Shown piece after piece: positions 3,759-5,920 of a stretch of 20,120 nucleotides of DNA; positions within the stretch are counted from its first letter, which is position 1; the number at the start of each line of letters is the position of its first letter. Under the pieces are notes generated by a model that worked only from the letters and a program-made list of their open reading frames with translations, was not told the DNA's origin and ran no database searches. Source of the stretch: a virus. The stretch is taken from IMG/VR virus record IMGVR_UViG_3300023117_000111, positions 1 through 20,120 of that record; one strand, given 5' to 3'. Made by a program: the position numbers and the translations under genes.

Positions 3759-3773
3759 ACTTAGACCAACTAG

Positions 3774-3798
3774 GGAGGGGTGCCCTACCACCCCTTTT
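3774..3798 (+). terminator. Intrinsic terminator after scaffold gene
   Basis: A perfect stem AGGGGTG (3776-3782) / CACCCCT (3789-3795) with a six-base loop CCCTAC is followed directly by a T run (3795-3798). It would end the packaging/scaffold transcript and separate it from the 244-aa gene and capsid. No clear sigma70 promoter is seen between it and the ATG at 3841, so the 244-aa gene may depend on read-through. Confidence 0.85.
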
Positions 3799-3840
3799 AT
3801 CCCTAGAAGGCAAAACAATATTAACAATGTAGGGATTATT

Positions 3841-4575
3841 ATGCCATTTACACAAGATACTTTCGCACCCGTTTCGGCTTCTGCCAGCAACGCTCCTAGA
3901 ATATACTCTTACTCTTCCAGTGATAATACAGTAACAGTTATTGCGGCTGGTTACTTTGAATCCAAAAAATACCAACTAGAGGAAGGAGACTGGATTCTAG
4001 CCGTTCTCTCTGATGGTGATGTTCTTCTTCAAGTTCTGTCTGATACTTCATCTGTAAAGGTTGTGGATATTAGCGGCTTACCTGCTGATAATTATGCTGG
4101 TGGGTTCTTTGATTACAATGATGCAGCTACAAGTACAACTCCTATTAATGTTGTTGGTGGCGGTGGCTTTGTAAAGTTAACCAATGACGAGGCGGGCGCG
4201 TTTACAAACAAGGCATACGCTCCGGCTGGTGTCACTGATGTTTGGGATGAAGTAGCAAATGAGTTTGACTTCACTCAGTTAAAATTAGGGGATATGGTTG
4301 ATTTCAGGCTCGATCTTACTGTTACAACTACATCACCAAACCAAGACGTAGATGTTAGATTGTTCCTTGGTGTGGGGGCTGGTGAATATTCAATACCGTT
4401 TGTTCTGACAAATATCAAATCAACTGGGACTGTAAGCCTTAATAGGTATAACGGTATTTATATGGGCGACACCAACACCCTAAATAACCCTGGTGAATTT
4501 AGAATTCAGTCAGACTCTAACGCAACAGTCGTTGTTAATGGTTGGTATGTGAAGATTATTAAGCGTGGCCAGTAA
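3841..4575 (+). CDS. Putative head fibre / large decoration protein
   Basis: A 244-aa protein with two parts. Residues 1 to about 75 (MPFTQDTFAPVSASASN, RIYSY, AAGYF, GDWIL, SDGDVLLQVL) align along their length with the 88-aa protein encoded just after the capsid gene, sharing M-FT--TF-PVSA, RI-SY, YF and GD-IL--GSD-type positions. Residues 80-244 are beta-rich with short turns (GVGAGEYSIPFVLTNI, GEFRIQSDSNATVVVNGWYV) and look like a jelly-roll or sandwich domain of the kind found at fibre tips. I infer a capsid-bound protein whose N-terminal module attaches to the head and whose C-terminal domain faces outward. It sits between scaffold and capsid, a place where T7 has no gene. AGGGA at 3831-3835 is the ribosome binding site. 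No homologue is recognised by name. Confidence 0.7.
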   Translation: MPFTQDTFAPVSASASNAPRIYSYSSSDNTVTVIAAGYFESKKYQLEEGDWILAVLSDGDVLLQVLSDTSSVKVVDISGLPADNYAGGFFDYNDAATSTTPINVVGGGGFVKLTNDEAGAFTNKAYAPAGVTDVWDEVANEFDFTQLKLGDMVDFRLDLTVTTTSPNQDVDVRLFLGVGAGEYSIPFVLTNIKSTGTVSLNRYNGIYMGDTNTLNNPGEFRIQSDSNATVVVNGWYVKIIKRGQ

Positions 4576-4735
4576 TTTGACTATGTCTCATTGTTAGACA
4601 ATAATACACATATTCCTATCACCGATACCCTCCTAGAGGCCGGATACAACAGGATTTTGTTAGTAATTAGCAAGATCAAACCGTATTCGGCACCTTGATC
4701 AAGCTAAGAAAAGATTAAGACTTTAGGAGACAATT
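4576..4735. other. 160-base intergenic leader before the capsid gene
   Basis: The largest non-coding gap in the window. Besides the promoter it holds a hairpin GATCAA (4674-4679) / TTGATC (4695-4700) with an inner CCG-TATT-CGG stem (4681-4690), overlapping a ten-base palindrome CTTGATCAAG (4694-4703). It ends with the strong ribosome binding site TAGGAGA (4724-4730), five bases before the capsid ATG. No T run follows the hairpin, so it does not look like a terminator; it would lie in the 5' leader of a transcript begun near 4612 and might stabilise the message. No small gene with a convincing start is seen. Confidence 0.5.
4577..4605 (+). promoter_or_regulatory. Sigma70-like promoter upstream of the capsid gene
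   Basis: TTGACT (4577-4582; 5 of 6 to the -35 consensus) and AATAAT (4600-4605; 5 of 6 to the -10 consensus) are separated by exactly 17 bases. Transcription would begin near 4612, about 125 bases before the capsid ATG. The spacer itself contains an inverted repeat, TGTCT (4584-4588) / AGACA (4596-4600), which could be an operator or chance. This is consistent with host RNA polymerase driving capsid expression, though start mapping is needed for proof. Confidence 0.6.
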
Positions 4736-5611
4736 ATGTCTAAGTTTCTTTCTAATGCTGCGATTCAAGAGTTCGACAGCGAAGTAAAACACGAATACCA
4801 ATCAAGAGGCAAGCTACGTAACACGGTTACACTACGCACCAATGTTACAGGTGACGCCTACAAATTCACCCGTATGGGTTCAGGTCTAGCTAACCAGAAA
4901 GCTACTCAAGCAAGCGTAACGCCGATGGACATTTCACACGGTCGCCAAACTGCTACGCTTGAAAACTGGCTTGCACCGGAATATACGGATATCTTCGACC
5001 AAGCAGAAGTAAACTTCGATGAGAAGCAAGAGCTAGCTAAAACAATTGCTAAAGCTCTAGCACGTCGTGAAGATCAGATCATCATTGATGCTATGGCAGC
5101 GGGCACTTACTCTACTACTCCTGGTACTGATGCTGATACAGGCTTTGATATTGCAGCAGGTGCAGCAGCTCTAACTGTTGCTAAGTTGCGTTCAGCGGCT
5201 ATGACAGGTTTAACTAACCGTAACGTAGATGATGAAGACCGTACTTTGATCTGTACTGCGGCAGGTGTTGAGCAGCTTCTAGGTGATCCAGAAGTAACCA
5301 GCTCTGACTTCAACGTATTGAAAGCGCTTGTATCTGGTACTCTTCAAGATACTACTTACATGGGCTTCAACATCTGCATTATCGGTCAACGTGTGGAAGG
5401 TGGCCTTCCTGGTACAGCTAACGATCGTAAAGCATTCGCATACCACAAGCAGGCTCTAGGTTATGCTGTAGGCATCGACATGAAAACGACCATCGACTGG
5501 GTAGCAGAGAAAACTTCATGGCTGGCTAACGGTATGCTTAAAGCGGGTGCTGTTGTTCGTGAAAATGCTGGTATCGTGCGTATTGGCTACGATGAAACTG
5601 TAGTAGTTTAA
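4736..5611 (+). CDS. Major capsid protein
   Basis: A 291-aa protein expected to have the HK97 fold, the main shell subunit. Recognisable stretches are the N-terminal FDSEVKHEYQSRGKLRNTV, the TRMGSGLANQKATQ segment (about residues 45-58), and DISHGRQTATLENWLAPEYT, as in capsid proteins of T7/BPP-1-like podophages. The middle has an Ala-rich region followed by NRNVDDEDRTLICTAAGVEQLL, and the C terminus ends in a hydrophobic strand (RIGYDETVVV). It is shorter than T7 gp10A (345 aa). The very strong TAGGAGA ribosome binding site, own promoter and regular codon choice fit high expression. The stop TAA is in frame with the next gene: four sense codons separate it from the downstream ATG. Confidence 0.88.
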   Translation: MSKFLSNAAIQEFDSEVKHEYQSRGKLRNTVTLRTNVTGDAYKFTRMGSGLANQKATQASVTPMDISHGRQTATLENWLAPEYTDIFDQAEVNFDEKQELAKTIAKALARREDQIIIDAMAAGTYSTTPGTDADTGFDIAAGAAALTVAKLRSAAMTGLTNRNVDDEDRTLICTAAGVEQLLGDPEVTSSDFNVLKALVSGTLQDTTYMGFNICIIGQRVEGGLPGTANDRKAFAYHKQALGYAVGIDMKTTIDWVAEKTSWLANGMLKAGAVVRENAGIVRIGYDETVVV

Positions 5612-5623
5612 GGAGAACTAATC

Positions 5624-5890
5624 ATGGCTTTCACAGCTTCTACTTTTATTCCTGTATCTGCAATGGGTAACAGTGATGCAGCTCGTATCTTCTCTTATGA
5701 GAATACAGGTGACACACTGCTTACAATTAAAGGTGCAAACTACTTTGATGATGCAGCTTCCACAACTGGCGGTCTAGGTCTTACTGACGGTGATGTAATC
5801 CTAGTAGCTGGCTCTGATGGGACTAGCTTCTTGAAGATGACTGTTACTGCTGGCGCTGCCACTGTAGCATCAGCGAACGACTTCGCTTAA
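5624..5890 (+). CDS. Small capsid decoration/stabilisation protein (paralogue of the 244-aa protein's N terminus)
   Basis: An 88-aa, probably all-beta protein directly after the capsid gene, with AGGAGA (5611-5616) seven bases before its ATG. Almost its whole length matches the first 75 or so residues of the 244-aa protein upstream of the capsid: MAFTASTFIPVSA, AARIFSYENTGDTL, GANYF, LTDGDVILVAGSDG. Its size, position and expected high expression suggest a decoration protein bound to the outside of the shell in many copies. That role is inferred from context; no named family is recognised. It lies in the same reading frame as the capsid gene, so leaky reading of the single TAA would create a capsid-decoration fusion. 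Confidence 0.75.
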   Translation: MAFTASTFIPVSAMGNSDAARIFSYENTGDTLLTIKGANYFDDAASTTGGLGLTDGDVILVAGSDGTSFLKMTVTAGAATVASANDFA

Positions 5891-5900
5891 TGTCACTCTA

Positions 5901-5920
5901 GGGGAGGGTTCGCTCTCCCC
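5901..5920 (+). other. Stable UUCG hairpin between decoration and tail-tube genes
   Basis: GGGGAGGG (5901-5908) and CTCTCCCC (5913-5920) pair over eight bases, one of them G-T, around a TTCG tetraloop (5909-5912). No T run follows, so it is unlikely to be a full intrinsic terminator. Its position after the highly expressed capsid and decoration genes suggests an attenuator, RNA-processing site or 3' stabiliser that lowers tail gene expression. The role is inferred. Confidence 0.55.

Follow-up and report, generated by a model that had tools for sequence, protein, structure and literature searches.

What use might a phage have for two copies of one small protein module, set on either side of its major capsid gene? 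The question is raised by DNA of an uncultured virus of bacteria (IMG/VR record IMGVR_UViG_3300023117_000111, positions 1 to 20,120; this whole stretch of 20,120 nucleotides is referred to as the window, and all features lie on its + strand). The gene order is: scaffold gene; a strong terminator-like hairpin (3770..3806; -22.6 kcal/mol for a 57-nt segment, z -3.0); the gene of a 244-aa protein (3841..4575); a promoter and leader segment (4577-4738); the major capsid gene (4736..5611; 291 aa, PF19821 at E 2.2e-69); the gene of an 88-aa protein (5624..5890); a G+C-rich hairpin, recognized by folding, that has no U tract in the window (5901..5920); and the tail genes. The capsid gene and the gene that follows it are separated by 12 bases, and ~160 bases lie 5' of the capsid gene. 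The initial annotation proposed that the two small proteins share an attachment-like domain of about 75 residues that docks on one and the same capsid site, plain in one and extended by an outward domain in the other, and that the two genes stand in separate expression contexts, which would set how many sites are plain and how many display the extension.

That the 88-aa protein and the start of the 244-aa protein are one and the same domain is established at several levels. A BLASTP alignment of the two spans 72 columns, with residues 1-65 on the side of the 244-aa protein, and has 40% identity (E 6e-11), the local alignment score is 100 vs 34.0 +/- 6.1 for 1000 shuffles (maximum 61; z 10.9), and the motifs that had been named by eye occur in the same order in both. 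When the 88-aa protein is aligned with the C-terminal part of the 244-aa one instead, the score is 32, inside the shuffled range, and the 244-aa protein searched against the window's record matches only itself and the 88-aa gene (E 3.6e-8). The sharing is thus far beyond chance. PHROG 18004, a family of unknown function, matches both proteins over residues 1-79 (E 2.6e-7 and 9.4e-7), and a separate family, PHROG 8270, takes up residues 78-243 of the long protein (E 1.4e-27). These profile searches, together with the AlphaFold2 (AF2) model, bear out the extra beta-rich domain of the 244-aa protein. The shared N-terminal module also stands, with its extent corrected to about 80 residues: profile, BLASTP, relatives and tree place the anchor of the long protein at residues 1-80 (3841..4080), and PHROG 8270 and Foldseek place its payload, a beta jelly-roll-like domain, at residues 78-244 (4072..4572). 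Pfam has no family for the plain or the long protein, even at E 10. The AF2 models, built with alignments of relatives as input, are confident (mean pLDDT 90.8 for the plain and 88.8 for the long protein) and predict an equal order of secondary-structure elements in the 88-aa protein and in residues 1-75 of the long one. Invariant or nearly so in both types are M1, Y25, D30, Y40, F41 and D57 (plain-protein numbering). Weak profile matches to periplasmic proteases (domain i-values 0.27 to 1.1, PDZ-like motifs) were dismissed.

The nature of this domain is indicated by a single structure. When the PDB is searched with a profile built from 53 plain proteins, one clear relative comes up, 9EG4 chain H, 'orf16' (E 1.1e-9); a profile of the long protein reaches orf16 at E 0.0027, and phmmer with the single 88-aa sequence finds no relative in the PDB, so that only the profile does. 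Foldseek with the plain model, for which the 50 best matches were listed, returns the same chain as its only significant PDB match (E 3.7e-5, TM 0.75); the matches listed for the long model are dominated by its payload. 9EG4, released 2025-04-16, is the icosahedral capsid of the LME-1 phage, and its chain A matches the window's capsid protein at E 4.6e-45, which makes the two capsids homologous. (Another candidate source of 9EG4, phage Peru-2, was rejected, since it has entries of its own, 9ZKX for the capsid.) The entry holds seven capsid and seven orf16 chains, the numbers expected if a T=7 shell bears decoration and capsid subunits in a 1:1 ratio. LME-1 orf16 has 269 residues in sequence and 89 modelled in 9EG4, lengths that are in line with an ordered anchor and an extension that was not modelled; orf16 itself was not found in phage or plasmid collections. 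Since domain and capsid both match 9EG4, the term 'attachment-like domain' is well founded: the shared domain is identified as a capsid-docking module by its homology to a protein solved together with a homologous capsid; the 88-aa protein consists of it in plain form, and in the 244-aa protein a further domain is attached to it.

The arrangement is not unique to this phage; it is a widespread, mix-and-match one. Eighty IMG/VR loci were collected by capsid similarity, independently of the small proteins, and the 73 with enough downstream sequence were counted, with the window included and near-copies kept. Directly 3' of the capsid gene, 66 of these have a plain copy (<=130 aa), four a 181-189-aa version and three no copy, the tail-tube gene coming next instead. 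Where both flanks are covered, 16 loci have long and plain copies, 10 the plain copy only, two the long copy only and two a mid-length copy only. An anchor protein is kept after the capsid gene in more distant relatives as well, which come from bins of Gammaproteobacteria, Rhodobacteraceae and other groups. Of the isolates, Methylophilales phage MEP301 and Pelagibacter phage Hodr carry just the plain copy, and Dunaliella viridis virus SI2, the only match to the plain protein by tblastn in annotated phages, has a 164-aa version (L095:1880-2374); no anchor protein is found in HTVC010P, Baldr, CKB-S2 or MW202742.

Several loci depart from the common plan. Directly after the capsid gene of SI2 and of loci L040, L052, L076 and L079, a 164-189-aa version replaces the plain 88-aa copy, and no separate long gene is seen in such loci where both flanks are covered. 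L085 and L086 have tandem plain anchor genes (89 and 84 aa) 3' of the capsid gene, L085 with an upstream long copy as well. Two fragments have a long copy (L018:4411-5829, L020:4085-5503) and no plain copy within their sequence. In phages with a related capsid and no anchor protein, the slot after the capsid gene is filled by an unrelated protein of 150-165 aa (HTVC010P gp10, L092:5368-5865; Baldr, L100:5380-5832), which is perhaps another decoration protein.

Among related viruses the anchor is kept while the outward part is swapped: when 48 different long proteins (161-724 aa) are compared by their C-terminal parts, 12 groups emerge that have no detectable similarity to each other at E 1e-4, some of them matching PHROG 16509, PHROG 3614, a BclA-like domain (weakly), coiled coils or tail-fibre families. 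Conversely, the payload family of the window, PHROG 8270, sits on other N-termini in unrelated phages, in some beside head genes; in Shewanella phage SppYZU01 and Oceanospirillum phage PD0307 it lies between the portal and protease genes. The payload model resembles the Sf6 tail-needle knob, the exosporium protein ExsF and TNF-like lectins (Foldseek; E 1e-5 to 1e-4, TM to target about 0.4-0.6). The payload may be a jelly-roll resembling lectin and phage-knob domains, and carbohydrate binding by it is plausible. The anchor can be used at either end of a protein: the L071 phage, on a 37,642-base contig, has a third copy at the C-terminus of a 1035-aa protein (L138:914-4021), behind a putative Ig domain (PF05345). 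The N-terminus of that protein looks SGNH-hydrolase-like by eye, for which Pfam offers no confirmation.

The plain (S-type) and long (L-type) anchors form two old lineages. In a tree of 109 anchors the two separate, with four label changes vs about 36 for shuffled labels (85 columns, with weak support for deep branches), and their signatures differ, for example DK..QL in L vs AA..LGL in S. As judged from these sequences, the S/L duplication is an ancient one, and the long type is marked by a signature of its own. LME-1 orf16 scores 45 bits with the plain-type profile vs 28 bits with the long-type one. The long anchors thus form one lineage that has persisted beside the plain one, which suggests a maintained function; at the same time, since S and L are separate old lineages and the only solved relative is closer to S, the L-type could bind elsewhere. 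It is likely, all the same, that plain and long anchors dock at the same capsid site.

The proposal of two expression contexts holds as a matter of anatomy. In relatives, the long gene precedes the promoter and leader or else comes after the plain gene, at positions that range from ~3.6 kb on the 5' side of the capsid gene to 0.4 kb on the 3' side, and its place outside the promoter-leader-capsid-plain unit in close relatives supports separate contexts. (The exception, L135, is a distant alphaproteobacterial contig in which the long gene directly follows the capsid gene.) In the window, the unit is headed by a sigma70-like promoter (TTGACT, 17, AATAAT; 4577..4605), and most relatives have such a site about as far upstream (on average 8.6 of 12 positions match, vs 7.2 in shuffles). 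Where the long gene lies downstream of the plain gene, a hairpin is found 3' of the plain gene in all 11 loci, and some of these hairpins carry a U tract like that of intrinsic terminators; since the 60 bases 3' of the plain gene fold with an energy that improves only moderately on that of sequence within the capsid gene, terminators are suggested here at most.

Between the long and the capsid genes lies a second element, a conserved leader RNA, present at the corresponding place in most relatives, that had been overlooked in the initial annotation and is possibly more novel than the paired proteins. In the window, it is ~122 nt long (4617..4738, with its 3' end at the capsid start codon; identified by folding, covariation and conservation) and folds into a three-way junction (-40.6 kcal/mol, z -6.2) with helices at 4630-4638/4721-4729 (anti-SD/SD), 4639-4647/4683-4691, 4653-4662/4668-4677 and 4694-4700/4713-4719. 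Of 59 different leaders, 56 fold at z < -2 (mean -4.4), and nearly all 59 have most of the ribosome-binding site in paired positions. When 30 leaders are aligned with a model, pairing is seen in 90.5% of cells vs 64.3% after shuffling, and 34 of 35 pairs show two-sided changes; this alignment was fitted to the structure, which makes an alignment-free swap test the cleaner evidence. In that test, on 15 leaders <70% identical to each other, the anti-SD/SD helix reaches -14.7 kcal/mol with own partners vs -9.6 +/- 0.7 with swapped ones, and the second helix -15.8 vs -11.5 +/- 0.7 (0 of 20,000 for each); two control pairings show no effect. A local 5' hairpin (CCG..CGG with an inner stem; 4622..4643) also has two-sided changes, and since it and the anti-SD/SD fold are mutually exclusive, the pair of structures is arranged as in a switch. 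In a subgroup (L025-L043 in part), the SD is paired with a nearer anti-SD. These properties make the leader a candidate regulatory RNA that would bury the capsid ribosome-binding site.

Models built from the leader find one match per genome, abutting the capsid start, at loci outside the training set as well, and an independent DNA pattern scan of IMG/VR finds matches mostly before capsid genes, with one, L110, left unassigned. Two pattern matches, L121 and L122, were taken as chance ones in unrelated G+C-rich sequence. In another, L111 (IMGVR_UViG_2162886013_000006), the pattern precedes a capsid gene only distantly related to that of the window, and no anchor protein was detected there; leader model R3 does not recover it. 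No Rfam 15 family matches the leader at gathering score (matches below threshold were set aside as chance), and a model search of eight isolates finds no leader in any. Phages in which no long gene is seen conserve the leader and the plain gene too, so that the leader is to be counted with the capsid-plain unit rather than with the pair of paralogues as such.

The two proteins are probably paralogous decoration proteins built on one ~80-residue anchor, the plain one coating most capsid sites and the long one displaying its payload on some. Both would be present in the virion and would dock at a common site on the outer capsid through that domain. The capsid and plain proteins would be made together, from their own promoter and behind a leader that must open for translation, and the plain protein would then cover most sites at about the copy number of LME-1 orf16, one for each capsid subunit. 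The L-type protein, made outside the capsid unit and probably in smaller amounts, would take some of the sites and display an exchangeable outward domain, which probably holds the virion near its host or a surface. The anchor has a homologue, a decoration protein, in a structure that also contains a homologous capsid; this, the conserved gene order, the exchange of payloads and the separation of the long gene from the capsid unit all argue for the account. Loci L018 and L020, with a long copy and no plain one, and L135, with its long gene directly after the capsid gene, do not fit it readily.

The same observations can be read otherwise. The separate contexts may be meaningless, the long gene being a freely moving accessory that merely spares the capsid unit, with no ratio tuned. 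The shifting position of the long gene and the conservation of leader and plain gene where no long gene is seen give this reading some standing, but the long lineage persists beside the plain one and never enters the capsid-plain unit in close relatives, and on balance the reading is somewhat doubtful. The S/L split in the tree and the different signatures raise a further alternative, rather unlikely on present evidence, in which the L-type anchor now docks at another capsid position (the pentons or a subset of the three-folds, for example) and the S-type covers the rest, as with Soc and Hoc of T4, so that copy number is set by geometry rather than by competition or dosage. Against it stand the identical invariant residues and the agreeing predicted secondary structure of the two types, as well as the existence of phages with a long copy only. 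Least probable of all is that the long protein is off the head altogether, in a tail or vertex fibre or as a non-virion protein that inherited the domain for another contact. The several places of the long gene and the tail-fibre-like repeats of some payloads would suit such a role, but it is the anchor that is conserved in the protein, the one relative with a solved structure is bound to a capsid, and the head module contains the long gene in most cases. Display of the payload from the capsid by some of the anchors remains the preferred reading.

A more ambitious version of the account joins pair and leader into one dosage system: the RNA switch would keep the ribosome-binding site of the capsid gene hidden until it detects a signal (capsid or decoration protein in free form, or a metabolite of the host), with the long protein outside the switch. 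This is improbable as it stands. If true, RNA control would set the number of payload-showing capsid sites, with capsid and plain protein rising together and the long protein not. Even short of that, the locus supplies a likely function for PHROG 18004 and for a capsid-adjacent gene in a widespread group of uncultured T7-like phages, and a natural clip-and-payload display in which one anchor is combined with a dozen unrelated outward domains. A strongly covarying leader over the ribosome-binding site of a major capsid gene also makes RNA control of capsid dosage directly testable.

In the open literature we find no described pair of plain and displayed paralogues with one anchor and separate expression units, and no description of the leader RNA; the elements have precedents nevertheless. 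Leader RNAs that sequester a ribosome-binding site, translational riboswitches among them, are structured, pair to that site in the gene that follows and have a competing 5' hairpin. The leader described here has the same layout and may switch between its two folds; it differs in having no Rfam family and in preceding a major capsid gene. T7 makes a plain capsid protein, gp10A, and a minor form with an extra C-terminal part, gp10B, by a frameshift of the capsid gene itself. There a plain and a minor, C-terminally extended form share one lattice; here the plain and long proteins are encoded by two separate ORFs with their own start codons.

Head fibres composed of anchor and spike, and pairs of decoration proteins, are known from phi29 gp8.5 and from T4 Soc and Hoc (PMC7602432). 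Like gp8.5, which places a small beta base domain on the capsid and a spike outward (PMC7602432), the long protein would be anchored at one end and exposed at the other; however, there is no sequence match, phi29 has no plain paralogue, and no structure of the beta-tulip decoration proteins lambda gpD and phi29 gp8.5 is among the 50 best PDB fold matches listed for the plain model. T4 likewise combines an abundant plain decoration protein with a displayed, adhesion-like one on the same head (PMC7602432), but Soc and Hoc are unrelated and occupy different sites, whereas here both proteins carry the same anchor. The closest likeness is to LME-1 orf16: its N-terminal domain and partner capsid are homologous to those here, decoration chains equal capsid chains in number, and its C-terminal extension is unmodelled. 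LME-1 has one such protein, nearer the plain type, whereas the phage of the window has a plain protein and a separate long paralogue with an unrelated payload; since the S-type protein of LME-1 is itself extended, the plain and display roles are not fixed to the two lineages.
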